From Protaetiibacter intestinalis (lineage in GTDB: Bacteria > Actinomycetota > Actinomycetes > Actinomycetales > Microbacteriaceae), in contig NZ_CP032630.1 in NCBI RefSeq assembly GCF_003627075.1, positions 2,170,001 through 2,234,000 on the forward strand: a DNA stretch of 64,000 bases, given 5' to 3'. The notes under the pieces are model-generated. The model saw only the letters and a list, made by a program, of their open reading frames with translations. It made no database searches and was not told the origin of the DNA. A program made the position numbers and the translations under genes. This document shows positions 1-64,000 of this stretch, in pieces. The stretch's first letter is position 1, and each line of letters starts with the position of its first letter.

Positions 1-415
1 CGGCCTGCCGGGCGACCACGTGGTGTGCTGCGACGACTTCGGCCGCATGTCGGTCAACGGCGTCGCGCTCGACGAGTCGGCCTACGTGAAGCTGCCCGAC
101 GGGGTCACGAAGGTCTCCAAGGACGACTTCGACGTGACGGTGCCCGAGGGCTCGCTGTGGGTCATGGGCGACAACCGCTGGAACTCGCGCGACTCGCGCT
201 ACAACCGCGACAACCCCGGCAACGGCTTCGTCCCGATCGACAACGTCGTGGGCCGCGCCGTGCTCATCACCTGGCCGATCGACCGCTGGAGCTGGCTCGA
301 CAACTACCCGGTCACCTTCGAGGGGGTCGAGGAGGCGCGCACGACGCCGCCCGCCACCGACGACAGCCAGTCGACGGAACCCGAGCCCGAGGCCACGGAG
401 ACCTCCGGCGGATGA
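1..415 (+). CDS. lepB: Signal peptidase I, C-terminal part (5' end outside window)
   Basis: Membrane-bound type I signal peptidase, which cleaves signal peptides from proteins exported by Sec or Tat. Only the last ~137 residues are present; the frame is open from base 2. The first visible residues GLPGDHV are the family's GLPGD box, and GDNRWNSRDSR (about bases 167-200) is the conserved C-terminal box around the catalytic fold. The catalytic Ser and Lys lie upstream of the window. The protein ends in a ~30-residue Thr/Pro/Glu-rich tail. Its stop overlaps the start of rnhB (ATGA), so the two are translationally coupled. A second, ER-type signal peptidase lies at 35283; this one has the ordinary bacterial box and is probably the general enzyme. 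Confidence 0.93.
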   Translation, partial: GLPGDHVVCCDDFGRMSVNGVALDESAYVKLPDGVTKVSKDDFDVTVPEGSLWVMGDNRWNSRDSRYNRDNPGNGFVPIDNVVGRAVLITWPIDRWSWLDNYPVTFEGVEEARTTPPATDDSQSTEPEPEATETSGG

Positions 416-1077
416 CCGTCGCCGACCCGACGCTGCGGTTCGAGCGCACGCTCTTCCGGGAGGGCGCCCCGCTCGTGATCGGCTGCGACGAGGTGGGCCG
501 TGGCGCGATCGCCGGGCCGGTGGCGGTGGGGCTCGGCGTGTTCCTGCCCGACGTGCGCCGGATGCCGGAGGGGCTGCGGGATTCGAAGCTGCTCTCCGAG
601 CAGCGGCGCGAGGCGCTGCACCCGCTGGTGGCGGCGTGGGCGCCGCACTGGGCGGTCGGCCTCGCCGACAACGTCGAGGTGGACCGCGACGGCATCGTGC
701 CGAGCCTCGGCCTCGCGGCGCTGCGCGCCCTGGAGACGCTCGTGCTCGCCGGGGTGCCCGTGGAGGCGGCGGTCGTCGTGCTCGACGGCTCGCACGACTG
801 GCTCACCCCGGCGCTCGCCGGCTGGCCGGAGGGCTCGCGCCCGCGCGTCGTCACCCGGGTGAAGGCCGACCGCGACTGCGCGACGGTCGCCGCGGCATCC
901 GTGCTCGCCAAGGTGCACCGCGACCGGCTCATGGTCGAGGCGGATGCCGTGCACCCCGGGTACGAGTGGGTCGGCAACAAGGGCTACGCCTCGGCGGGCC
1001 ACTACGCGGCGATCGACCGTCTCGGCTCGAGCGCCCTGCACCGCTGGAGCTGGCTGAAGCAGCCCGCCCTGTTCTGA
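412..1077 (+). CDS. rnhB: Ribonuclease HII
   Basis: Endonuclease that cuts the RNA strand of RNA-DNA hybrids and removes misincorporated ribonucleotides. The predicted 221-residue protein has the family signature GCDEVGRG at residues 24-31 (catalytic Asp26 and Glu27), the metal-binding VLDGSHDW segment in the middle, and the basic VKADRDCATVAAASV motif. Length is usual for the family. I chose ATG 412 because it overlaps the lepB stop and because the signature falls about 25 residues from it, as in relatives; the longer frame upstream is lepB read out of frame. The lepB-rnhB-DUF2469 order is a standard actinobacterial block. Confidence 0.96.
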   Translation: MTVADPTLRFERTLFREGAPLVIGCDEVGRGAIAGPVAVGLGVFLPDVRRMPEGLRDSKLLSEQRREALHPLVAAWAPHWAVGLADNVEVDRDGIVPSLGLAALRALETLVLAGVPVEAAVVVLDGSHDWLTPALAGWPEGSRPRVVTRVKADRDCATVAAASVLAKVHRDRLMVEADAVHPGYEWVGNKGYASAGHYAAIDRLGSSALHRWSWLKQPALF

Positions 1078-1089
1078 AGCCCCACCCAT

Positions 1090-1143
1090 CCACGTCTGCA
1101 CGGGTGTCGATACGCGCCCTCCGGGCGCTGCTCAACCAGCGGG
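1090..1143. repeat. Copy 1 of a dispersed ~54-bp intergenic repeat
   Basis: The segment beginning CCACGTCTGCA, passing through TCGATACG and ending CTCAACCAGCGG is found again, with few changes, at 8492-8544. Its centre (CGCCCTCCGGGCG) is self-complementary, so it can form a hairpin. It fills the gap between rnhB and the DUF2469 gene. It looks like a REP-type extragenic palindrome, and may also act as the rnhB terminator. Confidence 0.75.
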
Positions 1144-1178
1144 AGGGACCGGCGGAGGCCCCGCATCCGCGACCCAAC

Positions 1179-1191
1179 TAGACTTCCCCCG
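1179..1191 (+). promoter_or_regulatory. -10 element of a leaderless promoter for the DUF2469 gene
   Basis: TAGACT at 1179-1184 is followed after 7 bases by ATG 1192. Transcription would start at or next to the start codon. The same geometry recurs at more than ten genes in this window. No ribosome binding site precedes the ATG. Confidence 0.55.
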
Positions 1192-1515
1192 ATGGACGAG
1201 GACGATTTCGACGACTACGACCGCGAGGTCGAGTTGGCCCTGTACCGCGAGTACCGCGACGTGGTGGGGCAGTTCAAGTACGTGATCGAGACGGAGCGAC
1301 GCTTCTACCTCGCCAACGACGTGACGCTCGAGCGGCACGACACCGAGCACGACTTCTATTTCGAGCTCACCATGAACGACGTGTGGGTGTGGGACGTCTA
1401 CCGTTCCGACCGTTTCGTGAAGAGCGTGCGCGTGCTCACCTTCAAGGACGTCAACGTCGAGGTGCGCGGCGACAAGGATCTCGAGCTCCCGAAGGAGCTC
1501 GCGCTCGACGAGTGA
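1192..1515 (+). CDS. DUF2469 family protein
   Basis: A 107-residue acidic protein of the DUF2469 family, which is small, conserved in Actinobacteria and almost always found directly downstream of rnhB. The function is unknown. The visible sequence starts MDEDDFDDYDREVELALYRE, then has a central aromatic, charged core (FYFELTMNDVWVWDVYRSDR) and ends in an acidic tail. There is no signal peptide or membrane segment, so it is cytoplasmic. The start is set by a -10 hexamer 7 bases upstream (leaderless transcript). Its stop overlaps the GTG start of the next gene by 3 bases (GTGA). Confidence 0.9.
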   Translation: MDEDDFDDYDREVELALYREYRDVVGQFKYVIETERRFYLANDVTLERHDTEHDFYFELTMNDVWVWDVYRSDRFVKSVRVLTFKDVNVEVRGDKDLELPKELALDE

Positions 1516-1886
1516 GCGCGTGCCCGTGCGGCTCGGGCCGCGCGTTCGCGGAGTGCTGCGGGCCGATCCTCGCGGGGGAGCCCGCCCCGACCGCCGAGGC
1601 GCTCATGCGGTCCCGCTTCACCGCGTTCGCGCGGGGTGACGCGGCCCACCTGCTGCGCTCGTGGCATCCCTCGACCCGGCCCGCGTCGCTCGGGCTCGAC
1701 GACGCCACGGTGTGGCGCCGTCTGCAGCTCGTCGACACGGTCGCGGGCGGCCCGGACGACGCGGAGGGCGTCGTGGAGTTCCGCGCCTCGTACCGGGGTC
1801 CGGATGGCGCGGGGCTGCTGCACGAGCGCTCGCGGTTCGTGCGGCACGAGGGTCGCTGGGTGTACCTCGACGGCGAGGTCGGCTGA
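1512..1886 (+). CDS. YchJ/SEC-C motif family protein
   Basis: A predicted 124-residue protein of the UPF0225/YchJ family. The N-terminus SACPCGSGRAFAECCGP is a SEC-C type zinc-binding motif (CxCGSG...CC), followed by an NTF2-like domain with the family phrase LMRSRFTAFARGD and ending in GRWVYLDGEVG. The biochemical role is unknown. I chose GTG 1512 because it overlaps the DUF2469 stop and places the Cys motif at the very N-terminus as in relatives; the longer frame has no support. Confidence 0.87.
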   Translation: MSACPCGSGRAFAECCGPILAGEPAPTAEALMRSRFTAFARGDAAHLLRSWHPSTRPASLGLDDATVWRRLQLVDTVAGGPDDAEGVVEFRASYRGPDGAGLLHERSRFVRHEGRWVYLDGEVG

Positions 1887-1895
1887 CCGCCCGCC

Positions 1896-2318
1896 TCAGG
1901 CCTCGAGTGCCTCGGCGCACTGCGCGAGCTCGTCCCGCAGGGCGGCCGCGCGTTCGGCGGTGAGTCCGGCGAGCATCGTGCGCTCCACCTGGGCGACCCG
2001 CTCCGCGCTCGTCGCGAGCATCCGCCGCCCGGAGGCGCTGAGCGAGAGGCGGCTCGCACGCCCGCTTCCGGTGGTCTCGACGAGCCCGGCGTCGCGCAGC
2101 CCCGCGAGCAGTTGGTGGGTGGCCTGCCGGGTGACGAACACGGCACGGGCGAGCTCGGCGTTGGTGATCTCGGGCTGGGCGGCGAGTGCGGTGAGGCAGG
2201 AGTACTGCGGCACCCCGATGCCGAGGTCGCGGAGGGCCGCATCCATCGCGGTGTGCAGGGCGGCCTGCGCGCGCTTGAGGGCATAGCCGACGCTGTCCTG
2301 GGCTGCGGGTTGACTCAC
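1896..2318 (-). CDS. MarR family transcriptional regulator
   Basis: A predicted 140-residue winged-helix repressor. The body shows the MarR layout: an N-terminal dimerisation helix, a central helix-turn-helix and wing (LTALAAQPEITNAELARAV, VFVTRQATHQLLAGLRDAGL, then the wing GSGRASRLSLSASG), and a C-terminal dimerisation helix. The frame stays open to 2387, but I chose GTG 2318 (VSQPAAQDS) because the upstream part runs through the palindromic operator at 2327-2348. It is divergent from the VOC-family gene at 2368, which is the most likely target besides itself. The ligand cannot be predicted. Confidence 0.88.
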   Translation of the reverse strand: MSQPAAQDSVGYALKRAQAALHTAMDAALRDLGIGVPQYSCLTALAAQPEITNAELARAVFVTRQATHQLLAGLRDAGLVETTGSGRASRLSLSASGRRMLATSAERVAQVERTMLAGLTAERAAALRDELAQCAEALEA

Positions 2319-2361
2319 GTCAATATCTTGACATACTCTCTTGTCAAGAACTTGACGAAAG
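2316..2361. promoter_or_regulatory. Divergent control region with MarR-type operator
   Basis: CTTGACA (2327-2333), 8 spacer bases, TGTCAAG (2342-2348) form a perfect 7-bp inverted repeat. Further GTCAA/TTGAC half-sites flank it at 2319-2323 and 2351-2355. The region lies between the marR-type gene and the divergent VOC gene, so one operator could control both. This patch is also much more AT-rich than its surroundings. Confidence 0.7.
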
Positions 2362-2367
2362 TGAGCC

Positions 2368-2736
2368 ATGATGTCGAGCGGCGCCACCCCCAGCTTCCTC
2401 GCCCTGCAGACCCGCGACCCCGAGGCATCCGCCCGCTTCTACGAGCAGCAGCTCGGGATGCGCCGCGCGCCGCAGGCGCCCCCGGGAGCCGTCGTGTTCC
2501 CGACGGCGAGCATCCCGTTCGCCGTGCGACTGCCCGACGAGGGGCTCGACCCCGAGGCGGGCCCCGCCGGGCTCGGCATCGCGCTCTGGCTGCGGGCGGA
2601 GGGGGTCGAGGCGCTGCACGAGCGGCTCGCCGCCGACGGCGTCGACATCGTCCGGGGGCCGCACGACACCCCCTTCGGCCGCGCCATCGTCGTGCGCGAC
2701 CCGGCCGGCTACCGGCTCACCCTCCACGAGGGCTGA
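2368..2736 (+). CDS. VOC (glyoxalase/bleomycin resistance) family protein
   Basis: A 122-residue protein with the paired beta-alpha-beta-beta-beta layout of the vicinal oxygen chelate superfamily: the first half begins PSFLALQTRDPEASARFYEQ, the second half ends with FGRAIVVRDPAGYRLTLHE. Family members bind a metal and act as glyoxalases, dioxygenases or antibiotic-binding proteins; the substrate here is unknown. It is divergent from the MarR regulator and probably under its control, which suggests a role in a detoxification response (inference). Start is ATG 2368 or the adjacent ATG 2371. Confidence 0.83.
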   Translation: MMSSGATPSFLALQTRDPEASARFYEQQLGMRRAPQAPPGAVVFPTASIPFAVRLPDEGLDPEAGPAGLGIALWLRAEGVEALHERLAADGVDIVRGPHDTPFGRAIVVRDPAGYRLTLHEG

Positions 2737-2740
2737 GCCG

Positions 2741-2959
2741 TCACGGGGCGACGAGCACCCACACGCCCACGACCGCGGAGGCCGCGGCGAGCACCATCGC
2801 GATCCCGACGAGCACCTGGTGCACGCGCAGGAAGCGCGTGGGGCGGCCCGCGGCATCCCGCGCGCGCTCGTCGCGGGCGACGCGCTTCAGGAAGGTCGGC
2901 CAGGTGACGACGTTGAACAGGGCGTTGGCGAGCAGCAGGATGCCGGCGAAGACGGTCAC
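2741..2959 (-). CDS. Small two-helix membrane protein (resembles the SCO4848 family)
   Basis: A 72-residue protein with two hydrophobic segments, residues 2-20 (TVFAGILLLANALFNVVTW) and 46-70, joined by a charged cytoplasmic-type loop containing RDERARDAAGRPTRFLRVH. The layout and the phrase NVVTWPTFLKR match a small actinobacterial membrane family I associate with SCO4848; that assignment is from memory. The function is unknown. It converges with the VOC gene, leaving a 4-base gap. Confidence 0.75.
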   Translation of the reverse strand: MTVFAGILLLANALFNVVTWPTFLKRVARDERARDAAGRPTRFLRVHQVLVGIAMVLAAASAVVGVWVLVAP

Positions 2960-2992
2960 CCGTCGAGCCTAGGCGGCGCCGACGCGCGGTCG

Positions 2993-3004
2993 TACCCTGG
3001 GCTC
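2993..3004 (+). promoter_or_regulatory. Leaderless-type -10 element (TACCCT)
   Basis: TACCCT at 2993-2998 lies 6 bases before ATG 3005, so the transcript probably begins at the start codon. No Shine-Dalgarno sequence is present. Confidence 0.5.
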
Positions 3005-3400
3005 ATGGCCGGACTCGTCCCCTACCTGCTGCTGCCGGGCACCGCACGCGAGGCGCTCGAGTTCTATCAGGCGGTGTTCGGCGGCGAGCTCGTGCTGCAC
3101 GAGTACGGCGAGTTCGGGCGCACCGACGGTCCCGCCGACGCGATCGCCCACGGCATGCTGCGCGGCGTCGTCGAGCTCTTCGCCTCCGATGCGGGCGCCG
3201 ACGATGACGCGATCGCGACGACGGGGCTCATGTTCGCGCTGCTCGGTGTCGCGGATGCCGACACGACGACCGCCTGGTTCGCCGCGCTCTCCGAGGGCGG
3301 CCGGGTGCTCGACCCGCTGCAGCACAGGCCCTGGGAGGGCAACGACGGGCAGGTGCGCGACCGCTTCGGGGTGCACTGGCTGCTCGGCTTCGAGGATTGA
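3005..3400 (+). CDS. VOC family protein, PhnB-like
   Basis: A 131-residue single-gene VOC protein of the PhnB-like subgroup: N-terminus LVPYLLLPGTAREALEFYQAVFGGEL and C-terminus with QVRDRFGVHWLLGFED (the DRFGVxW phrase is typical of the group). The name PhnB is historical, and no phosphonate role is implied. Start ATG 3005 is supported by the -10 element 6 bases upstream; the longer open frame overlaps the gene on the other strand. It stands alone, convergent with the GNAT gene downstream. Confidence 0.86.
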   Translation: MAGLVPYLLLPGTAREALEFYQAVFGGELVLHEYGEFGRTDGPADAIAHGMLRGVVELFASDAGADDDAIATTGLMFALLGVADADTTTAWFAALSEGGRVLDPLQHRPWEGNDGQVRDRFGVHWLLGFED

Positions 3401-3404
3401 GGGC

Positions 3405-3893
3405 TCACGCCCTTGCGGGCCGCAGCTCCATGCGGTGGCACGACACGGGCACCGAGGCGTCCGCGCCGATCTCGGCGGCGTAGGCGAACTCGCCGGCATC
3501 CGTCCAGCCCTCGCGCTCGTAGAAGTGCCGGGCGCGGGCGTTGCCGGAGGCCACCGCGAGCCACGGCACCGGGTGGCCGGCGGCGCGGACCGCGTCCGCC
3601 GCATCCGCGAGGAGCGCCGCGGCGACGCCCGTACCGCGGAAGGCCGGGTCGACGTACACCTGGTCGACCTCGTCGCCCGCCGTCATCGTGAAGCCGGCGA
3701 TCACGCCGTCGACCTCGGCGACGCGGGTGCGCGGGATCGCCGCCGCCACCCGCGGCACGAAGGCCTCGCGCGTGCGGTGCGCGAGCAGCGCCTCCGGCAC
3801 ATGCCCGAGGTGCCCGTCGCGCCATCCGGGTGCCCAGATGTCGACGACGCGTTCGGCGTCGGCGGGGGTGGCGGGGCGGATGCGGAGGGTCAC
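3405..3893 (-). CDS. GNAT family N-acetyltransferase
   Basis: A predicted 162-residue acetyltransferase. The GNAT fold is readable in order: N-terminal strand and helix (LRIRPATPADAERVVDIWAP), the acetyl-CoA pyrophosphate loop region VDQVYVDPAFRGTGVAAAL (V-x-P-x-x-R-G-x-G motif A), and the motif B stretch ASGNARARHFYEREGWTDAG. The substrate is unknown. GTG 3893 is chosen because the family begins just before LRIRPA; the longer frame to 4013 adds arginine-rich sequence with no family match. It is convergent with the PhnB-like gene (4-base gap). Confidence 0.88.
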   Translation of the reverse strand: MTLRIRPATPADAERVVDIWAPGWRDGHLGHVPEALLAHRTREAFVPRVAAAIPRTRVAEVDGVIAGFTMTAGDEVDQVYVDPAFRGTGVAAALLADAADAVRAAGHPVPWLAVASGNARARHFYEREGWTDAGEFAYAAEIGADASVPVSCHRMELRPARA

Positions 3894-3969
3894 CGTGCCA
3901 CGGTAACCGTGCCGGCCGACGCGTGGAGGGTGTCGAGGTCGAGTCCCGAGAATCGGGCCACCGCGCGCG

Positions 3970-4155
3970 TCACTCCGCGCGCGGGTCGAAGTCTCCGCGA
4001 CGGGCCCGTACATGGATGCGCACGAACAGAGCGCACACGAGCACGTTCACGAGCGAACCGACGACGGAGAAGGGCCCGAATGCCTGCGTGAGTCGCGACG
4101 CCGGGAGCATGTCGCTGCCGTGGATCCGATCGATCATCAGGTCGAGCCACTTCAC
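3970..4155 (-). CDS. Small putative membrane protein
   Basis: A possible 61-residue protein starting VKWLDLMIDRIHGSDM with one hydrophobic segment (about residues 29-46, FGPFSVVGSLVNVLVCALFV) followed by a basic end. It has a membrane segment and positive-inside charge as a real protein would, and its codon use matches neighbours, but I recognise no family. GTG 4155 is the best start (a GGAG lies just before it, spacing short); the open frame to 4596 is antisense to yraN and not credible. Confidence 0.45.
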   Translation of the reverse strand: MKWLDLMIDRIHGSDMLPASRLTQAFGPFSVVGSLVNVLVCALFVRIHVRARRGDFDPRAE

Positions 4156-4257
4156 GGCTCCAGTATGGGTCCTGCACAGGGCTGAGCCGATGCGCGTTAT
4201 CCCCGGATGCGGGCTTCGTGTCCGCGGGCGGCCCGGCGGTTCGTCAGGCTCTCGGGC

Positions 4258-4614
4258 ATGGCGGCGAAGGACGAACTCGGCAGGCGCGGTGAACGGCTCG
4301 CGGAGCGGCACCTGCTCGCGCGCGGCTACCGGCTGATCGAACGCAACTGGCGCTGCCGACACGGCGAGATCGACCTCGTGGTGCGCGACGGCGACGCGAT
4401 CGTGTTCGTCGAGGTGAAGACCCGCAGCTCGACCGCTTTCGGGCATCCCTTCGAGGCGATCACACCCGTGAAGCTCGCGCGGCTGCGGCGGCTTGCCGGC
4501 CTCTGGTGCGAGACGCACCCGCGGGAGCGGGGTCGCATCCGCATCGACGCGGTGGCGGTGCTCGCCCCGCGCGGCGTCGAACCGCGCATCGAGCACCTCA
4601 CGGGGGTGTTCTGA
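4258..4614 (+). CDS. YraN / UPF0102 family endonuclease-like protein
   Basis: A predicted 118-residue protein of the UPF0102 family, which has a restriction-endonuclease-like fold. The core E-(x)n-D-(x)n-ExK signature is present: HGEIDLVVRDGDAIVFVEVKTRSS, where Asp, Glu and Lys would form the metal site. It is usually found next to comM and dprA, as here, and a DNA-repair or competence role has been proposed for the family but not shown. ATG 4258 is chosen over 4207 because the family starts with KDELGRRGERLAERHL. The stop overlaps the comM start (ATGA). Confidence 0.9.
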   Translation: MAAKDELGRRGERLAERHLLARGYRLIERNWRCRHGEIDLVVRDGDAIVFVEVKTRSSTAFGHPFEAITPVKLARLRRLAGLWCETHPRERGRIRIDAVAVLAPRGVEPRIEHLTGVF

Positions 4615-6143
4615 TGGGCGTCGGCCGCGCGCATGCGATCGCGCTGCTGGGGCTCGACGGCGCGCTCGTCGAGATCGAGGCCGACACCGCGAGCGGGCTG
4701 CCCGCCTACGTGCTGGTCGGGCTGCCGGATGCCTCGCTCGGCGAGGCGAAGGCGCGCACCCGGTCGGCGATCGGCAACACCGGGGTCGACTTCCCGAGCG
4801 GACGGGTGACGGTGAACCTGTCGCCCGCCTCGCTGCCGAAGGCCGGCCCGGCGTTCGACCTCGCGATCGGTCTCGCCCTGCTCGCCGCCGACGGTCACGT
4901 CGACCCGGCCTCCGTCACCGGCGTCGTGCACCTCGGCGAGCTGGGGCTCGACGGGCGCCTGCGCCCCACCCGCGGCATCCTGCCGATGGTGCTCGCGGCC
5001 GAGCGGGCGGGCTTCGACACCGTGCTCGTGCCGGCGGGCAACGCCGATGAGGCCTCCCTCGTACCCGGCATGCGGGTCGTGCCGGTGGCGAGCCTGCGCG
5101 ACGCGGCGATCTGGCACGGCGCCGTGCTCGACCCGGTCGACGTCGAGGCGCTCGTGCCCGCGGCGGTGGATGCGGTGCCCGACGACGGGGGCGACCTCGC
5201 CGAGGTGGTCGGCAACCGGGATGCCGTCGAGGCGGTGCAGGTGGCCGCCGCGGGCGGGCACCACATGTTCCTGCTCGGGCCGCCCGGCGCCGGCAAGACG
5301 ATGATCGCGGCCCGACTGCCCGGTATCCTGCCCGACCTCGACGAGCGTGCCGCGATCGAGGTGAGCTCGATCCGCTCGCTCGCGGGGATGCCGGTGGGCG
5401 CCTCGCTCGCCACCCGGCCGCCGCTCGAGGCGCCGCACCACTCCTCCTCACCCGCGGCGATCGTGGGCGGGGGCAGCGGCGTGATCCGCCCGGGGGCCGC
5501 GGCGCGCGCCGCGCACGGCATCCTGTTCCTCGACGAAGCGCCGGAGTTCGCGCCCAGCGCCCTCGACTGCCTGCGGCAACCGCTCGAATCGGGGGTCATC
5601 ACGATCTCGCGCGCCGCCGCGACGGCGACCTTCCCGGCCCGCTTCCAGCTCGTGCTGGCCGCCAATCCCTGCCCGTGCGGCAACTCGGGGGTGCGCGACG
5701 CCGAGTGCAGCTGCACGCCGTTCGCACGTCGCCGCTACCTCGGCAGGCTCTCCGGTCCGCTGCTCGATCGCGTCGACATCCAACTCGACGTGCCGCGCGT
5801 GACCGCCGCCCAGCTGCGGCTGGCGGACGACGGACCGGTCACCACGAGCACCGCCGCCCGCGACCGCGTGCGCGAGGCGCGGGCCCGCGCCGTGCGTCGC
5901 CTCGCTGGAAAGCCCTGGCGGCTCAACGCCCACGCGCCCGGAACCTGGCTGCGTCGCGAGGGCGCCCCCGAGCCGGGTGCCACGGCCGGCCTCGACAGGG
6001 CCCTCGAACGCGGCGCCCTCACGATGCGCGGCTACGACCGCGTGCTGCGCCTCGCGTGGACCCTGGCCGATCTCGACGGGGTCGACCGCCCCGGGCTCGA
6101 CCAGATCGGCCGCGCCCTCTACCTCCGGAAGGCCGCCACATGA
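4614..6143 (+). CDS. comM: YifB/ComM family Mg chelatase-like AAA+ ATPase
   Basis: A 509-residue AAA+ ATPase. In naturally competent bacteria ComM is a branch-migration helicase that helps integrate imported DNA. Domains: N-terminal Lon-protease-like/ChlI domain (GLPDASLGEAKARTRSAI, PAFDLAIGLALLAADG), Walker A GPPGAGKTMIA (about residue 223), Walker B HGILFLDEAPEF, a zinc-like Cys pair region (NPCPCGNSG...CSC) and a C-terminal lid domain. ATG 4614 overlaps the yraN stop by one base and its own stop overlaps dprA, so yraN-comM-dprA is one operon. Confidence 0.95.
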   Translation: MGVGRAHAIALLGLDGALVEIEADTASGLPAYVLVGLPDASLGEAKARTRSAIGNTGVDFPSGRVTVNLSPASLPKAGPAFDLAIGLALLAADGHVDPASVTGVVHLGELGLDGRLRPTRGILPMVLAAERAGFDTVLVPAGNADEASLVPGMRVVPVASLRDAAIWHGAVLDPVDVEALVPAAVDAVPDDGGDLAEVVGNRDAVEAVQVAAAGGHHMFLLGPPGAGKTMIAARLPGILPDLDERAAIEVSSIRSLAGMPVGASLATRPPLEAPHHSSSPAAIVGGGSGVIRPGAAARAAHGILFLDEAPEFAPSALDCLRQPLESGVITISRAAATATFPARFQLVLAANPCPCGNSGVRDAECSCTPFARRRYLGRLSGPLLDRVDIQLDVPRVTAAQLRLADDGPVTTSTAARDRVREARARAVRRLAGKPWRLNAHAPGTWLRREGAPEPGATAGLDRALERGALTMRGYDRVLRLAWTLADLDGVDRPGLDQIGRALYLRKAAT

Positions 6144-7393
6144 CCATCCTCGGCATCGCCGACGCCACCGTCGCCTCCCTCGTGCGTCCCGTGACGGGTG
6201 CCGGCCACGACCGCGATGCGGTCGCGGAACGCTTCGCGCGGGCCACCTGGACGAGCCTCGCCGAGCCCGGGGATCGCGTCGCCGGGCTCGTCGTCGCCGC
6301 CCTCGGTGCGGAGGCGGCCCTCGCGGCGCTGCTCGACGACCGGGAGGGCAGACGGCTGCGGCACGCCCTCGCCGAGGCGGAGGTCGAGCTCGACGAGGCC
6401 GAGCTCACCGAGGGCATCGCCCGCTGGACCCCGCGCATCTCCAAGCAGGACGCGCTGCTCGCCTTCCGGCAGGCCGCCCGGTTCGGGCTGAGCTTCGTCG
6501 TGCCCGACGACCCGGACTGGCCCGCGGGATTCGCCGACCTCGGCGAGCACGCGCCCCTCGGGCTCTGGCTGCGGGGTCACCGGCAGGCGCTCGGCCACCT
6601 CCACCGCGCGATCGCGATCGTCGGCGCCCGCGCGGCGACCGGCTACGGCGAGCACGTCACGATCGAGGCCGCCGCGGGCCTCGCCGACCGCGGCTACGCG
6701 ATCGTCTCCGGGGCCGCCTACGGCATCGACGGCGCCGCGCACCGGGCCGCGCTCGCGAGCCGTGCCACCACGATCGCCTTCCTCGCGGGCGGGCTCGACC
6801 GCTTCTACCCCTCGGGGCACGACGCGCTCATCGGCCGCATCGTCGACCACGGCGCCGTGGTCTCCGAGGTGCCGTGCGGGGTCGCGCCCACAAGATGGAG
6901 GTTTCTTCAGAGGAACAGGTTGATAGCGGCCGCGACGCTCGCGACGATCGTCGTCGAGGCCGGATCCCGCTCCGGCTCGCTCAACACGGCGGGCCACGCC
7001 GCCGCCCTCGGCAGGCCCCTCGGAGCGGTGCCCGGGCCCGTCACGAGTCCGGCATCCGCCGGGTGCCACCGGCTGCTCCGCGAATACGACGCGGTGTGCG
7101 TCACGACGGCCCAGGAGATGGCCGAACTCGCCCCGCTGCCGGAGACCGTTGCGGATGCGGAGCCCGAGACCGTCGAGCAGGCGGAGGCCGCCGGATCGCG
7201 CCGGCCCGCGGATCCGAGCGGCACCCGCATCCGCCTGCTCGACGCCCTTGCGCCCCGCAGCCCGCGCACCCCGGAGAAGGTGGCGGCTCTCTCCGGTCTC
7301 GCCGTCGACCGGGTGCGTGCCGAGCTGGGGTTGCTCGCGCTCGAGGGCGCGGTCCGCGAACGCGCGGGCGGCTGGGTGCGGGTCGCGTCGTAG
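6140..7393 (+). CDS. dprA: DNA-processing protein DprA
   Basis: A 417-residue protein that in competent bacteria protects incoming single-stranded DNA and loads RecA. Order: an N-terminal SAM-like region with the WPAGF phrase, the Rossmann core (VGARAATGYG; IVSGAAYGIDGAAHRAAL; FLQRNRLIAA; AVPGPVTSPASAG) and a C-terminal winged-helix domain (about residues 355-415). ATG 6140 overlaps the comM stop by 4 bases. Odd feature: codons 251-262, which encode the conserved RWRFLQRNRLI motif, are AT-rich and use AGA/AGG, CTT, TTG and ATA, codons almost absent elsewhere in the gene (see findings). The protein itself is intact. Confidence 0.94.
   Translation: MTILGIADATVASLVRPVTGAGHDRDAVAERFARATWTSLAEPGDRVAGLVVAALGAEAALAALLDDREGRRLRHALAEAEVELDEAELTEGIARWTPRISKQDALLAFRQAARFGLSFVVPDDPDWPAGFADLGEHAPLGLWLRGHRQALGHLHRAIAIVGARAATGYGEHVTIEAAAGLADRGYAIVSGAAYGIDGAAHRAALASRATTIAFLAGGLDRFYPSGHDALIGRIVDHGAVVSEVPCGVAPTRWRFLQRNRLIAAATLATIVVEAGSRSGSLNTAGHAAALGRPLGAVPGPVTSPASAGCHRLLREYDAVCVTTAQEMAELAPLPETVADAEPETVEQAEAAGSRRPADPSGTRIRLLDALAPRSPRTPEKVAALSGLAVDRVRAELGLLALEGAVRERAGGWVRVAS
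6890..6928 (+). other. AT-rich rare-codon patch inside dprA
   Basis: Twelve consecutive codons (ACA AGA TGG AGG TTT CTT, then CAG AGG AAC AGG TTG ATA) average 42% GC against over 70% on both sides. Four of four arginines use AGA/AGG, and Leu and Ile use CTT, TTG and ATA. The amino acids encoded are the most conserved motif of DprA. The DNA sequence, not the protein, is what stands out. Confidence 0.85.
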
Positions 7394-8401: not shown

Positions 8402-8443
8402 GCTGGTTGAGTGCCGCGCGAAGCGCGGTGTATCGAAACCAGC
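8402..8443. repeat. Hairpin repeat related to the dispersed intergenic element (reverse orientation)
   Basis: GCTGGTTGAG at one end and TATCGAAACCAGC at the other close a hairpin around GCCGCGCGAAGCGCGG. Read on the minus strand it has the same frame (TCGATAC ... CTCAACCAGC) as the repeats at 1090 and 8492. It lies just after the phosphoesterase gene. Confidence 0.75.
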
Positions 8444-8491: not shown

Positions 8492-8583
8492 CCACGTCTG
8501 CATGGGTTTCGATACGCCCGCTGCGCGGGCTACTCAACCAGCGGAGGTGTGGGACGCTGTGCGGGCTACTCAACCCGCGGCGG
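8492..8583. repeat. Copy 2 of the dispersed repeat plus a partial third copy
   Basis: 8492-8544 matches 1090-1143 from CCACGTCTGCA through TCGATACG to CTCAACCAGCGG. At about 8556-8583 a shorter copy follows (GTGCGGGCTACTCAACCCGCGG). The remaining bases to the xerC start show no other feature I can support. Confidence 0.72.
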
Positions 8584-58929: not shown

Positions 58930-60579
58930 ATGGCCAAGCCCGACCTCATGGACTTCGACAAGGCGCTCGAGCTGTTCGAGCCGGTGCTCGGATTCGAGGT
59001 GCACGTCGAGCTGTCGACCGCCACCAAGATGTTCTCCGACGCCCCCAACCCGGCCGCCCCGGGCGGTTTCGGCGCCGGCCCGAACACGCAGATCACGCCG
59101 CTGTGCCTGGGTCTGCCCGGCAGCCTGCCGGTGGTGAACGAGAAGGCGATCGAGTACTCGATCTCGCTGGGGCTCGCCCTCGGGTGCCAGATCGCCCCGT
59201 CATCCCGCTTCGCCCGCAAGAACTACTTCTACCCCGACCTCGCGAAGAACTACCAGATCAGCCAGTACGACGAGCCGATCGCGTTCGAGGGCTCGGTCGA
59301 GGTGGAGCTCGAGGACGGCACCATCGTGACGGTGCCGATCGAGCGCGCCCACATGGAGGAGGACGCCGGCAAGCTCACCCACATGGGCGGCGCGACCGGA
59401 CGCATCCACGGTGCCGAGTACTCGCTCGTCGACTACAACCGGGCGGGTGTGCCGCTCGTCGAGATCGTGACGAAGCCGATCTTCGGCGCCGAGCACCGCG
59501 CGCCCGAGGTGGCGAAGGCGTACGTCTCGACGATCCGCGACATCGTGCGCGCCCTCGGCATCTCGGAGGCCCGGATGGAGCGCGGCAACCTCCGCTGCGA
59601 CGCGAACGTCTCCCTGCGTCCCCGCAGCGTGCCTGCCGCCACTCAGGTGGTCGAGGAGCGCCCCTCTCAGGTGGTCGAGGAGCGAGCCGCCGAAGACGGC
59701 ACGCGTCTCGAGACCACCGCCACCCCCACCCACCTAGACGCCTCCATCGACCCGCACCCCGAGGTGAAGCTCGGCATCCGCACCGAGACGAAGAACGTGA
59801 ACTCGTTCCGTTCGGTGGAGCGTGCGGTGCGCTACGAGATCCAGCGGCAGGCGGCGATTCTGGCCGCGGGCGGCTCGATCACGCAGGAGACCCGCCACTG
59901 GCACGAGGATCGCGGGGTGACCTCCGCCGGTCGCCCGAAGTCGGATGCAGACGACTACCGCTACTTCCCGGAGCCCGACCTGCTGCCGATCGAGCCGAGC
60001 CCCGAGCTGATCGAGCAGCTGCGTGCCGCGCTGCCGGAGTCGCCGACGGTGCGCCGGCGTCGCCTGCAGGAGGCGTGGGGCTTCACCGACCTGGAGTTCC
60101 GCGACGTGAAGAACGCCGGACTGCTGGTGGAGGTGGAGGAGACGGTCGCCGCCGGCGCCGCCCCCGCTCAGGCCCGCAAGTGGTGGACGGGCGAGATCGC
60201 CCGCATCGCGAACAGCCGCTCGGCGGAGCCGGCTGAGCTCGTGTCGCCGCTGCACGTGTCGGAGCTGATCGCCCTCGTCGAGTCGGGCGACCTCACCGAC
60301 CGCCTCGCCCGCCAGGTGCTGGAGGGCGTCATCGAGGGGGAGGGGCGGCCGTCGGAAGTGGTCGAGTCCCGCGGTCTGAAGGTGGTCTCGGATGACGGTG
60401 CCCTGATCGCCGCGATCGACGAGGCGCTCGCCGCCCAGCCCGACGTGCTCGAGAAGATCCGCGACGGCAAGGTGCAGGCCGCCGGCGCCGTCATCGGCGC
60501 GGTCATGAAGGCGATGCGGGGATCAGCGGATGCGGCGCGCGTGCGCGAACTCGTGCTGGAGCGGGCGACGGGGGAGTAG
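58930..60579 (+). CDS. gatB: Asp/Glu-tRNA amidotransferase subunit B, with a repeat-derived insertion
   Basis: A 549-residue subunit that binds and activates the misacylated tRNA. GatB landmarks are complete: [101 protein letters not shown] and the C-terminal YqeY-like domain ([18 protein letters not shown]). Between NVSLRP and [11 protein letters not shown], where relatives have only a few residues, there are about 43 extra in-frame residues (59629-59760) that come from a dispersed palindromic repeat. The insertion is at a loop next to the catalytic core; the rest of the protein is intact. Confidence 0.95.
59646..59718 (+). repeat. Intergenic-type palindromic repeat inside the gatB coding sequence
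   Basis: GGTGGTCGAGGAGCG occurs twice (59646-59660 and 59670-59684), then a hairpin core GCCGCCGAAGACGGC, then TCTCGAGACCACC (59706-59718) as the inverted end. This arrangement (GGTyGAG ... cGAAg loop ... TCGAkACC) is that of the extragenic repeat at 8402-8443, here in frame in a gene. Confidence 0.8.
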
Positions 60580-60944
60580 TTAGGGGGCGGAGGCAACACG
60601 TCAGTTGGCGCTGTGCGAGCCCCAACCACAGTGCGGGCCGGGACGGCCCGTCATTGCGTCCCGGCGCAATCGCACTCGCGGCTGTTTCGGGCTATCTCTG
60701 GCAGGTTCCCGCCGCCGCTACGTGCCCTTCGACCTCGCTACGGGACCGGCTGTTGCCTAGTACAGACCGGGGCTCGATTCAGTCGCGAGCTAGCGAACGG
60801 TCCAAGAGCCGGCATTCGCGACTGCTGCCGAACACGGATACCGCTATTGTGATCGAGCGCGCCTGCCGCATGAGCTTGACAACGGATACAACTCGTGGAT
60901 TGGCGGCGTGCTGACCGCTTGCGAACGCCGAAGGACAAGATCGT
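60580..60944 (+). other. Intergenic region: gatB terminator and edge of the low-GC island
   Basis: No gene is credible here. CCGGGACG (60638-60645) and CGTCCCGG (60657-60664) form a terminator-like hairpin. CAGTCGCGA (60780-60788) and TCGCGACTG (60816-60824) are perfect 9-bp arms. TTGACA at 60876-60881 is a consensus -35 hexamer, but I see no good -10 17 bases later. From about 60700 the base composition falls and stays lower through 63640. Confidence 0.55.
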
Positions 60945-62678
60945 ATGCGCTGGCAAATCACCAACTTCAAGGGCATCGCCAGGGCAGAGTTTGACATTTC
61001 GCCTGGTCACGCCACTGTGATTACAGGCGTGAACAGTAGCGGAAAGTCCTCGACGATTCAGTCGCTGCTACTTACGGCGCAAAGCCTCTACGACGATGGT
61101 CCGATTGTGTTGAACGGGCCGCTGGTTCGACTCGGAGATGCTGAAGACCTTGTTCGGGAGGGCGCAGAGAGCAACAGCATCGGAATCCGCCTCAACCTGG
61201 ACCCAGCGCGCTCGGCCAGAGGACCATCGGATCCGGAGGCGCAGGTATCGTACGAACTCGTCTCCAGCGAGGACCATTCAACGCTGCGAGCGCGAAGAGT
61301 AACGATCGAGAGAACTGAATTCAGTAGCGAACCGTTCGTCCTCGCACGTCAAAACTCGCGGGGGAGTGATGTAGAACTCGCGCTACAGGCGACACGCCAT
61401 TTCGGAGAATGCGATGTGCTGCACGTGAAATCGCTCCTTGGCGACGACAGGCGACAGTTGCGAACATATGTTGCGATGCAAGGGCTTCGGCCGGTGGTTG
61501 TTGTTCAATTGCTAAGCCCAGAAGCGGTCCGCACGCGATACCGGAAAGCATTCGCCGCTTGGATTGCTGAGGATGAGCGGGTGGCACATCCTTTGGATGG
61601 CCTGGGGACTGCGCCTTCCATCGCCCGGGATTTTGCACGCGTCCTCTCTGACGTAATTCAGAGGGACGAGTTTTCGGAAAGCGGATTGCAGGATGCGGTG
61701 CGATCGAGAGGGTTAACTCCGTCTCGATTGAGGCGTGCGATGCGCGAACTCGATGCTTCGCAGCGAGACGCGATTCTCGACATCGCAGCTGACCAGAGGG
61801 CGCGATCGCCGTGGGTATGTCTCCCGGTGAAGCAGCTTTGGTCTTTTCGGTCGATGAGCGACGGAGTGCTCGAAGCGCAACTCGAAGAGATATTGGGCGA
61901 CAGTTACGTCGCGTTGCTCTTGCTCAGTGAGTGCCTCGATGATCTATCCCAGCGCGTGCAGTACCTGGGGCCTCTGCGAGATGAGCCTCGCGTGGTCTGG
62001 AACCATTGGAACGAACTTGCGCGAGGGCTCCCGGTCGGCACTCGAGGAGAGTTCAGCGCCGCGGTGCTGTCGCGGGGTGACTCGGCTCTCGTCTCCTACC
62101 GCTCGCCCAACGGTGAGCCTAAGATGGCGCCCCTCTCGAGCGCCGTCAACGAGTGGTTGGCGCATCTGGAGATTGGCGACGATGTCGTGGCCCGTCCGAG
62201 AGGAAAGCTCGGTGTCGGTTTCGATCTGCAGATCAACGGGCGCACTCGCGACCTCACGTCGGTGGGAGTTGGCGTGAGTCAAGCTCTTCCACTGCTTGTT
62301 GGGCTTCTGAAGTCGCCGCAATCCTCTGTCTTCATCGTTGAGCAACCGGAACTCCACCTCCATCCGGCAGTCCAGGCGCGCTTGGCTGATTTCTTGCTCC
62401 GCGCCCGGCCAGACATGTCGGTGATAGTTGAAACGCACAGCGAAGCGTTCATCACCAGAATTCGTCGCCGCGCTGCGGAGGGCACTCTGCCGCTCAAGGA
62501 CGTCGACATTGCGTTCGTGGAAACTTCAGACTCCGGATCGGTGGCGCGCAGACTCGGGCTCACGGAGTTCGGAGACCTGAGCGAATGGCCGGAAGGTTTC
62601 TTGTCCTCGACTGAAGAGGACATACGAGAGATCCTGCGCCATAACGTCGAGCGTGCGCGTGGAAGCCTGGATGTCTAG
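60945..62678 (+). CDS. ABC-type AAA ATPase (DUF3696-like), defence-module component
   Basis: A 577-residue SMC/ABC-like ATPase. N-terminus WQITNFKGIARAEFDISPG, Walker A VITGVNSSGKSST (residues 26-37), a long helical middle (about 200-340), ABC-signature-like LTSVGVGVSQALPLLVGLL, Walker B VFIVEQPELHLHPAVQARLADF and H-loop VIVETHSEAFITRIRRR, then a DUF3696-type tail. There is no Toprim or nuclease domain in it. Such ATPases are the sensor or motor of several phage defence systems. Codon use is mixed and GC lower than neighbours, so it was probably acquired. It overlaps the next gene by 8 bases. Confidence 0.88.
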   Translation: MRWQITNFKGIARAEFDISPGHATVITGVNSSGKSSTIQSLLLTAQSLYDDGPIVLNGPLVRLGDAEDLVREGAESNSIGIRLNLDPARSARGPSDPEAQVSYELVSSEDHSTLRARRVTIERTEFSSEPFVLARQNSRGSDVELALQATRHFGECDVLHVKSLLGDDRRQLRTYVAMQGLRPVVVVQLLSPEAVRTRYRKAFAAWIAEDERVAHPLDGLGTAPSIARDFARVLSDVIQRDEFSESGLQDAVRSRGLTPSRLRRAMRELDASQRDAILDIAADQRARSPWVCLPVKQLWSFRSMSDGVLEAQLEEILGDSYVALLLLSECLDDLSQRVQYLGPLRDEPRVVWNHWNELARGLPVGTRGEFSAAVLSRGDSALVSYRSPNGEPKMAPLSSAVNEWLAHLEIGDDVVARPRGKLGVGFDLQINGRTRDLTSVGVGVSQALPLLVGLLKSPQSSVFIVEQPELHLHPAVQARLADFLLRARPDMSVIVETHSEAFITRIRRRAAEGTLPLKDVDIAFVETSDSGSVARRLGLTEFGDLSEWPEGFLSSTEEDIREILRHNVERARGSLDV

Positions 62679-63636
62679 AAGCCCGGTGCACTTGCTGGAC
62701 CCAGAGTTCGTGATTCCGTCGCGGGATGGTGCTGGAAACTATCAATTCTGGGACCGAATGGTGCGGTGCGCTGACGACAGGACCCCTCGTCTCGGTCCAT
62801 CGACTCTCGACGCCCTACTCGTGCTTGCACAGAGCCCACCGTCGCTCCTTCCCGTCAACGACTTCTGGCGGATCCTTGGCCAGTACGTATCGCGTGGGCT
62901 TGTTCCGCAGACATCCGAGCGCGAAACCTGCGATCACACTGTGGAGGGGTATACCCCGGGCCTGGGGGACATCGGCAACGGTTCGCGGATTGCATCCGAC
63001 CTTGCGGCAACAGGATTGGGAACTATGGTCCGTCTCAAGACGGTATCGGGTTGCTGGTCAGGGAGGGTTGGAGCCTGCACTGATTGCGACGAACCCGCAC
63101 TGTTTCTTGAGGATGAATGGTGCACTGAGGACCAGAAGCGTCTGAATGCACTGAAGGGCACCCGGGCCTCCGTTCTTCGCGTCGTGGGGTCCGACCCTGC
63201 GGAACTTGAGACATTCGCACCGGACATGTTTCCGGCCTTGACATTCCACCCGAGCGCGTGGAATGGAATCGGTTCGCTTCAGGGGGACCGAGGTGAACTG
63301 CGGGACGCTCTCATTCACCACCTCGGCGTTCTAAACGATTCAGTCGTCCAGCTCTGGGAAATGGAAAGCGAAACCCTCGCGCGACAGTCAGCGTTGGGCG
63401 CGATGGGGGTCGTTGCCTCTCCGGAGAACGGAAACACCCGGAGAAACTCGGGCGCGATGGCAGCTAGACGGTTCGTATTCGACGGCCAAATTGTGAGTTG
63501 CGAATGGCACACCAAGCTTCGGCCCAACATCAACCGAATCTACTTTTCGGTTGGGCAACGGCCACCCCGTGAATCCGAAGGCGACGATCCTATTGACACC
63601 GTATTCGTGGGCGCAATCGTCGATCACTTGACCTGA
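62671..63636 (+). CDS. Unrecognised protein partnered with the AAA ATPase (candidate effector)
   Basis: A predicted 321-residue cytoplasmic protein that I cannot assign. Visible parts: N-terminal helical third (VHLLDPEFVIPSRDGAGNYQFWDRMV), a Cys-rich patch CWSGRVGACTDCDEPA ... DEWC (about residues 130-155) that may bind zinc, and a C-terminal module with SCEWHTKLRPNINRIYFSVG and TVFVGAIVDHLT, a small beta-type end in which WHTKL and RIYF look conserved in kind. ATG 62671 overlaps the ATPase stop (ATGTCTAG), with GGAAG upstream, so the two are translationally coupled. It may carry the toxic or nuclease activity of the pair (inference). Confidence 0.75.
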   Translation: MSRSPVHLLDPEFVIPSRDGAGNYQFWDRMVRCADDRTPRLGPSTLDALLVLAQSPPSLLPVNDFWRILGQYVSRGLVPQTSERETCDHTVEGYTPGLGDIGNGSRIASDLAATGLGTMVRLKTVSGCWSGRVGACTDCDEPALFLEDEWCTEDQKRLNALKGTRASVLRVVGSDPAELETFAPDMFPALTFHPSAWNGIGSLQGDRGELRDALIHHLGVLNDSVVQLWEMESETLARQSALGAMGVVASPENGNTRRNSGAMAARRFVFDGQIVSCEWHTKLRPNINRIYFSVGQRPPRESEGDDPIDTVFVGAIVDHLT

Positions 63637-63805
63637 AGGCCCGGCAGTGCGAATCGCCACCCATGTTGTGTGGCGTCGGGATCGGTCGCTCTGAGTCGAC
63701 GGCGCAAACCCATCGGCGCGCCAGCCTGACCGCCCACGCGGTCAGTGCATGGGGCATTTTCGATGCTGACGGTCGGCCCGTCGCTCGGGCGTCAACGCGA
63801 CCCCT

Positions 63806-64000
63806 TCATCCCACTTCCTCGTAGTCGTACCCGTCGCGGATGACGTCGTTGAAGTAGCGCCCCTTGCTGTCGGCGCGCAGCAGCGCGCGGAACACGAACT
63901 CGGGCACGCGCTCGTAGCGGTAGACCTGCTCGCTCGTGAACCGGATGTCGAGCAGCCCACGCGCGGCGTCGTACCGCACGGCGTCGATCGTGGTGGAGTC
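63806..64000 (-). CDS. KTSC-domain protein, C-terminal part (5' end outside window)
   Basis: A reading frame of 64 residues open to the window edge, ending TGA at 63808-63806. It reads VRYDAARGLLDIRFTSEQVYRYERV then FVFRALLRADSKGRYFNDVI, which is the KTSC domain (named after the C-terminus of a lysyl-tRNA synthetase): Y-D-x-x-x-x-x-L-x-I-x-F ... V-Y-x-Y-x-x-V-P and A-D-S-K-G-x-Y-F. Small proteins of this domain are common and of unknown function. The frames on other strands here are shadows. Confidence 0.85.
   Translation of the reverse strand, partial: DSTTIDAVRYDAARGLLDIRFTSEQVYRYERVPEFVFRALLRADSKGRYFNDVIRDGYDYEEVG

Follow-up and report, generated by a model that had tools for sequence, protein, structure and literature searches.

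The window that we analyzed is a 64,000-nucleotide stretch of the Protaetiibacter intestinalis genome (referred to here as G000; 3.10 Mb, one contig). It contains gatB, which has one match in this genome and whose product scored 831.6 bits against its NCBIfam model (cut-off 653). As a subunit of GatCAB, GatB is generally regarded as needed for life. The protein is 549 aa long, compared with 505 aa in relatives with a short loop (such as P0012), and thus carries 44 extra residues. The features discussed below are as follows.

58930..60579, plus strand: gatB, Asp-tRNA(Asn)/Glu-tRNA(Gln) amidotransferase subunit B, 549 aa (NCBIfam equivalog NF004013)
59626..59766, plus strand: lengthened GatB loop, residues 233-279, where short-loop relatives have 3 residues (alignment of nine genus genomes; structure model)
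59644..59667, plus strand: 24-nt unit with a duplicated copy of the 5' half of the palindrome, encoding QVVEERPS (direct repeat, spacing 24, 95%)
59668..59718, plus strand: complete C-type palindromic element, 51 nt, residues 247-263 (genome copies; flanks)
59686..59700, plus strand: central hairpin GCCGCCGAAGACGGC (coordinates; RNA folding)
59719..59766, plus strand: tail of the GatB loop, whose end, DASxxPHPEV, is common to relatives with a repeat-free loop
8405..8440, plus strand: extragenic T-type relative (GGTTGAG..TATCGAAACC), the core of the repeat at 8402-8443 (exact genome copies)
8505..8539, opposite orientation: second T-type copy, near the one at 8405..8440

Past gatB (60600-64000), the GC content changes from ~0.70 to ~0.60, and an ORF for an AAA_21/AAA_15 ATPase (60945-62678) is followed by an unnamed ORF (62653-63636); this adjoining segment looks like an acquired island.

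The first-pass annotation had described two copies of a repeat, a hairpin, and an inverted copy inside gatB, and all of these are present within 59644-59718: two copies of CAGGTGGTCGAGGAGCG (59644-59660 and 59668-59684), the central hairpin, and CGTCTCGAGACCACC at 59704-59718. RNA folding of 59639-59725 gave z = -3.1. The annotation had also proposed about 43 extra residues, all encoded by the repeat. The extension is real, but it amounts to 44 residues, of which only about 25 (residues 239-263) derive from the repeat, the first eight (239-246) from the duplicated 5' half and the others from the complete element. In the remainder (RSVPAAT and the tail at 59719-59766), a repeat origin was undetectable when tested on relatives, as was any repeat similarity in the tail end DASxxPHPEV. 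Four relatives have a long loop that is free of the repeat, and their 63-nt extension matched the repeat consensus no better than did random coding DNA (p = 0.50-0.87), and for its first 33 nt the p values against the gatB repeats were 0.09-0.41. We therefore rejected an origin of the whole 44-residue extension from the repeat. Judged by eye from the sequences, it is conceivable that the repeat-free long loop is a deletion derivative of the repeat.

The annotation had suggested mapping the loop on a GatB structure. A model built from 40 sequences (mean pLDDT 78, pTM 0.72) matched known GatCAB structures, among them 3ip4 and 3h0l. In this model, residues 235-264 have pLDDT values below 50 and no regular structure, and this low-confidence loop sits between strands 221-231 and 285-290 of the N-terminal domain.

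The element in gatB belongs to a dispersed family. The motif GGTYGAGNAGC occurs nine times in the window (0.72 expected; 0 of 100 shuffles reached nine), and genome-wide there are 48 exact matches to the pattern GGTYGAGNAGC..CGNNTCGARACC, with cores of 33-43 nt (n = 48), whereas the reversed pattern used as a control has none. The gatB copy is among the 48, which supports the proposal that a dispersed repeat has become an in-frame insertion in GatB. The family comprises two subfamilies. The T-type, GGTTGAGTAGC..GTATCGAAACC, is common in G000, and the C-type, GGTCGAGGAGC..CTCGAGACC, has four exact copies there, including the one in gatB. The extragenic repeat at 8402-8443, whose layout had been likened to that of the gatB insertion, is of the sister T-type rather than the C-type. 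C-type copies number 4, 3, 19, 23, 1, 4, 0, 0, and 55 in the nine genus genomes (G000 to G008, in order) and 248 in G034, a genome of another genus; among 30 genomes sampled in the family, G000 counted, three have C-type copies. The C-type consensus contains no stop codon in any of the six frames, and the T-type consensus has stops in two of the three sense frames.

The extension could also have arisen by ordinary slippage of GC-rich coding DNA, with a chance resemblance to the repeat. The loop is variable, and in some relatives it is extended without the repeat; but in the gatB element both conserved arms are present in a core of 43 nt, the genome holds 48 such cores and no reversed ones, and the outer flanks of the element, CAGGT and ACC, agree with those common in other copies. 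For the extension as a whole we consider this explanation very improbable, and for 59668-59718 we regard it as refuted. Slippage is a fair account of the part of the extension that lies outside 59668-59718.

The family has the properties of REPs in the broad sense: it is a short imperfect palindrome with many dispersed copies, located mainly outside genes, and neighboring copies form inverted pairs (e.g., 443604/443704 and 1228152/1228230 in G000). More such pairs were seen in the copy lists of G008 and G034. In the copies that we read, GTAG lies immediately 5' of the inner hairpin in the T-type and CGTC lies within the 3' arm of the C-type; in both, the conserved outer arms extend past these tetranucleotides. 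The window gave nothing at the gathering score in Rfam. The Y1 transposase domain of RAYTs (PF01797) was found in none of the nine genus genomes, nor in G034 with its 248 copies, nor in G016, in a search that gave matches in 5 of 14 named control genomes. Judged by PF01797, the family does not look like a RAYT-mobilised REP (REPtron) in the 11 genomes searched. Di Nocera et al. (2013; PMC3733652) state that their CGTC group of REPs has no dedicated transposase either, so the absence of PF01797 is not new in itself.

Several known systems resemble this family in part. Rickettsia palindromic elements are short palindromes that lie in frame in conserved, likely functional genes (PMC3733652), and the parallel that the annotation had drawn with them stands as far as the in-frame insertion goes: here the genes are those for GatB, IleRS, ValRS, PabB, NadB, Lhr, and an ABC-F-like protein, which we infer to be functional. 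The present case differs in phylum, in that one loop can be filled by different subfamilies (among sister species and across two genera), and in that one frame dominates. Intragenic REPs have also been described outside Rickettsia. Di Nocera et al. reported intragenic GTAG/CGTC REPs in several phyla, including copies in tRNA synthetases, repair genes, and DnaE2, which often encode 20-30 residues and were suggested to lie in flexible linkers (PMC3733652). The GTAG directly before the inner hairpin of the T-type may correspond to the tag of that group, but the conserved element runs past GTAG as pairing outer arms. Insertion at the same site is described there for recB, with other genes of one class hit at different sites; in the present genomes, several genes are hit again and again at equivalent sites. 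The main text of that paper does not mention Actinobacteria, Leifsonia, Microbacterium, or Clavibacter. MITEs and ERIC-type elements are likewise dispersed, noncoding, and built with inverted repeats, but they are 70-300 bp long and have terminal repeats (PMC3733652), in contrast to the single imperfect hairpins of ~33-51 nt seen here. Within the open-licence literature, judged by titles and the beginnings of abstracts, we found no paper devoted to this repeat or to intragenic REPs in Actinobacteria; one paper, PMC4392301, contains matching terms.

We used a codon score to ask which of 173 collected copies lie in frame within genes, and 21 were flagged. The collection of T-type copies is complete for G000 only; in G034, we examined 97 of the 248 C-type copies. 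In G000, seven of the 48 copies were flagged, compared with 1237 of 2000 fragments of 36 nt drawn at random from the window in a similar though not identical test (same score, flank minimum of 120 nt instead of 90), which indicates that the repeat strongly avoids genes (P ~2e-11). The repeat is therefore present in intergenic DNA of this genome, and indeed mostly there. After the rejection of one flagged copy, six of the 48 remain as in-frame copies within conserved genes. These are gatB, valS, pabB, the genes for an ABC-F-like ATPase and the Lhr helicase, and a helicase-like gene that could not be named with confidence. The suggestion that the phenomenon may be general is thus borne out in this genome, and it extends to relatives: across the seven genus genomes with C-type copies, 12 of 109 such copies are in frame in conserved genes (two in gatB, three in lhr, four in nadB, two in pabB, and one in ileS). 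This tally takes the 13 that were flagged, subtracts two that were rejected, and adds one below the threshold. The flags that we dropped were those of L144 (low-scoring antisense frame), L206 (end of an ORF that matches no family), and L005 (an 81-aa ORF); L155 was flagged through a frame on the wrong strand and was kept on the strength of its sense frame, which lies in lhr. The curated NCBIfam cut-off was passed by ValRS, IleRS, NadB, GatB, DnaE2, and the Lhr of G034. PabB (305 and 322 versus 328 bits) fell short of it, as did the ABC-F-like protein and those Lhr ORFs that are cut short.

Alignment of GatB from relatives indicated that the insert is not conserved throughout. Among the nine genus genomes, G000 and G008 have the repeat, four (G001, G004, G005, and G007) have a longer loop without it, 18 residues beyond the short form, and three (G002, G003, and G006) have the short loop (RPRGQEKLGT), which is common among actinobacteria. 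None of 80 named loci kept from 588 relatives has the gatB repeat; the whole loop motif is 26 residues long in 71 of these loci and 30-36 residues in nine. At the protein level, among the best 120 of 8000 scored proteins, seven have a VVEER-type loop and one (P0011) a decayed form. A clean contrast is offered by the sister species G005 and G008, whose GatB cores are 99.3% identical and whose IleRS proteins are 97.7% identical: the insert is present in G008 and absent from G005, and 29 of 30 flanking codons on each side of it are alike at third positions.

The gatB repeats of G000 and G008 are identical at 48 of 51 positions, with all three differences in the center and both arms intact. They share the center GGAGCGAGCCGC, which is absent from the other listed C-type copies and suggests one shared insertion or transfer. 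A tree of GatB with the loop removed requires five changes of the repeat label (mean 7.3 after shuffling), of which at least two are forced by well-supported branches, although the poor resolution of the tree makes the count of events uncertain. As several gains or losses are needed, we rejected a single event followed by simple descent. The repeats may go back to a common ancestor, followed by loss or a short exchange, or they may have been inserted separately.

The intact arms raise the possibility that a function of the RNA or DNA (an mRNA hairpin, pausing, or a protein-binding site) keeps the element in gatB and that the peptide is a by-product. The hairpin is strong, and the 48/51 identity exceeds that of the adjoining coding sequence to the left, where third positions of 30 codons are 67% alike between G000 and G008. 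However, the contrast is one-sided, as the 30 codons to the right are 93% alike; a young insertion would also show intact arms, and relatives carry decayed or partial copies (GatB of P0011 and PabB of G004). We regard such a role as unlikely.

Other genes show the same kind of site reuse. In the nine IleRS sequences, one site holds a C-type copy in G008 and a T-type-like copy in G005 and is empty in seven. The sister species G005 and G008 (L236 and L235) thus have different subfamilies at one site, which could be two insertions or one copy replaced via recombination. ValRS has a T-type copy in antisense in G000 and C-like copies in G001 and G002, and the site is empty in six genomes; the G001 row contains a frame change and was left out of the identity comparison. 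The assembly of G001 is 89% complete; it has two copies each of the regions around ileS and valS near its contig ends and a broken gatB frame, so it may be duplicated or erroneous at these loci. In joint alignment, the IleRS and ValRS insertion sites coincide, before PLDRYLLAK and PLDVDMLAE, respectively. PabB has T-type copies in G000 and G003 (complete in G003), C-type or C-like copies in G001, G002, and G008, and a partial copy in G004; for NadB, wrong-strand frames were discarded, after which G002 and G003 were read from their sense frames and G006 and G007 were left out. Outside the genus, all 60 genomes searched for the IleRS loop matched and 30 loci were returned, two of them from the genus, which left 28 further genomes. 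In these and G034, only the IleRS of G034 has the repeat, which is partly duplicated and read as VEER; two of the others have long loops without it. A 5' part duplicated ahead of the full copy is found in PabB (L280) and IleRS (L359) as well as in GatB (59644-59667), as if the hairpin promoted slippage.

The frame in which the repeat is read shows a bias. By eye, sense C-type or C-like copies are read in the (V)VEER or VEEP frame at seven of eight gene sites (GatB, IleRS, ValRS, PabB, NadB, and Lhr sites A and B; the exception is DnaE2 of G034). If the sites are independent, the probability of this is ~1.5e-4 for six equal frames and ~0.008 for the three sense frames only. Antisense T-type copies use one frame (GFDT, GLDT, or GFET) in five of five rows, and the frame of the second members of C-type inverted pairs varies. 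We also ranked the six frames by predicted disorder. The VEER reading came first or second in 9 of 10 rows (the G008 GatB copy came fourth), and T-type readings ranked first to fourth, with no consistent high rank.

The frame bias could also mean that the peptide itself (VEER..TRLET/ASRD) is a selected, useful module whose benefit keeps the repeat in genes, and the filling of the same loops in different species and genera would fit this. However, the VEER reading ranks so high in predicted disorder that filtering for tolerance would be enough to produce the bias. Furthermore, most of the relatives examined do without the peptide, the loops are highly variable in sequence and length, and T-type copies at the same sites give very different peptides (GFDT.., LSSPP..). 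We consider selection for the peptide improbable; most likely, the repeat peptide is tolerated rather than useful.

We favor the reading that a mobile palindrome is tolerated in disordered loops. For gatB, we conclude, with a probability of roughly 0.85, that a dispersed REP-like palindrome of the Microbacteriaceae lineage inserted in frame in a hairpin loop that was already variable. This conclusion draws on the identity of the element, the copies of it outside genes, the close relatives that lack it, its open frame, and the like insertions elsewhere. Copies would land, or be copied, into many places, and those that hit genes would nearly all be purged. The survivors would be those that keep the frame, encode a peptide that is hydrophilic and disordered (VEER..TRLET or VEER..ASRD), and lie in a flexible loop or at a domain junction; slippage promoted by the hairpin may then duplicate the 5' arm by lengths divisible by three. 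A bolder proposal is that the palindrome is a mobile protein-loop module, its C-type open in six frames but kept almost only in one charged, disordered sense frame, which is moved by non-RAYT machinery and refills the same or equivalent loops, such as the junctions of the catalytic and anticodon domains of IleRS and ValRS, across species and genera. We put this forward tentatively, as a possibility that is somewhat doubtful.

In-frame REPs are already known from Rickettsia, Proteobacteria, and other bacteria (PMC3733652). What is new here is the added clade, the finding that different subfamilies return to equivalent loops, and the frame bias. The results show that translation enzymes of actinobacteria, too, can carry palindromes inserted in frame, and they reveal an abundant REP-like family in genomes in which the PF01797 search detected no RAYT. 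They also provide clean contrasts between sister species (with the element, without it, or with the other subfamily in its position), and such natural replicate insertions offer a way to ask whether these loops are neutral or useful.

Two minor observations concern length and the second genus. Lengths divisible by three were found for 47 of 109 C-type copies and for none of the 11 in-gene copies that were flagged and accepted; the difference has P = 0.0013 per copy but 0.055 per gene, and we do not claim an effect of gene location on length. In G034, in-frame copies are found in IleRS, Lhr, and DnaE2. The Lhr open frame (L344, G034:C1:201500-213500, ORF 396-6344) has grown to 1983 residues with three in-frame arrays of the repeat peptide, one of them, by eye, at the site used in G000, and the error-prone polymerase DnaE2 (L348, G034:C3:76000-79500, ORF 714-3500, minus strand) carries an in-frame array in a different frame (WSRSA..).
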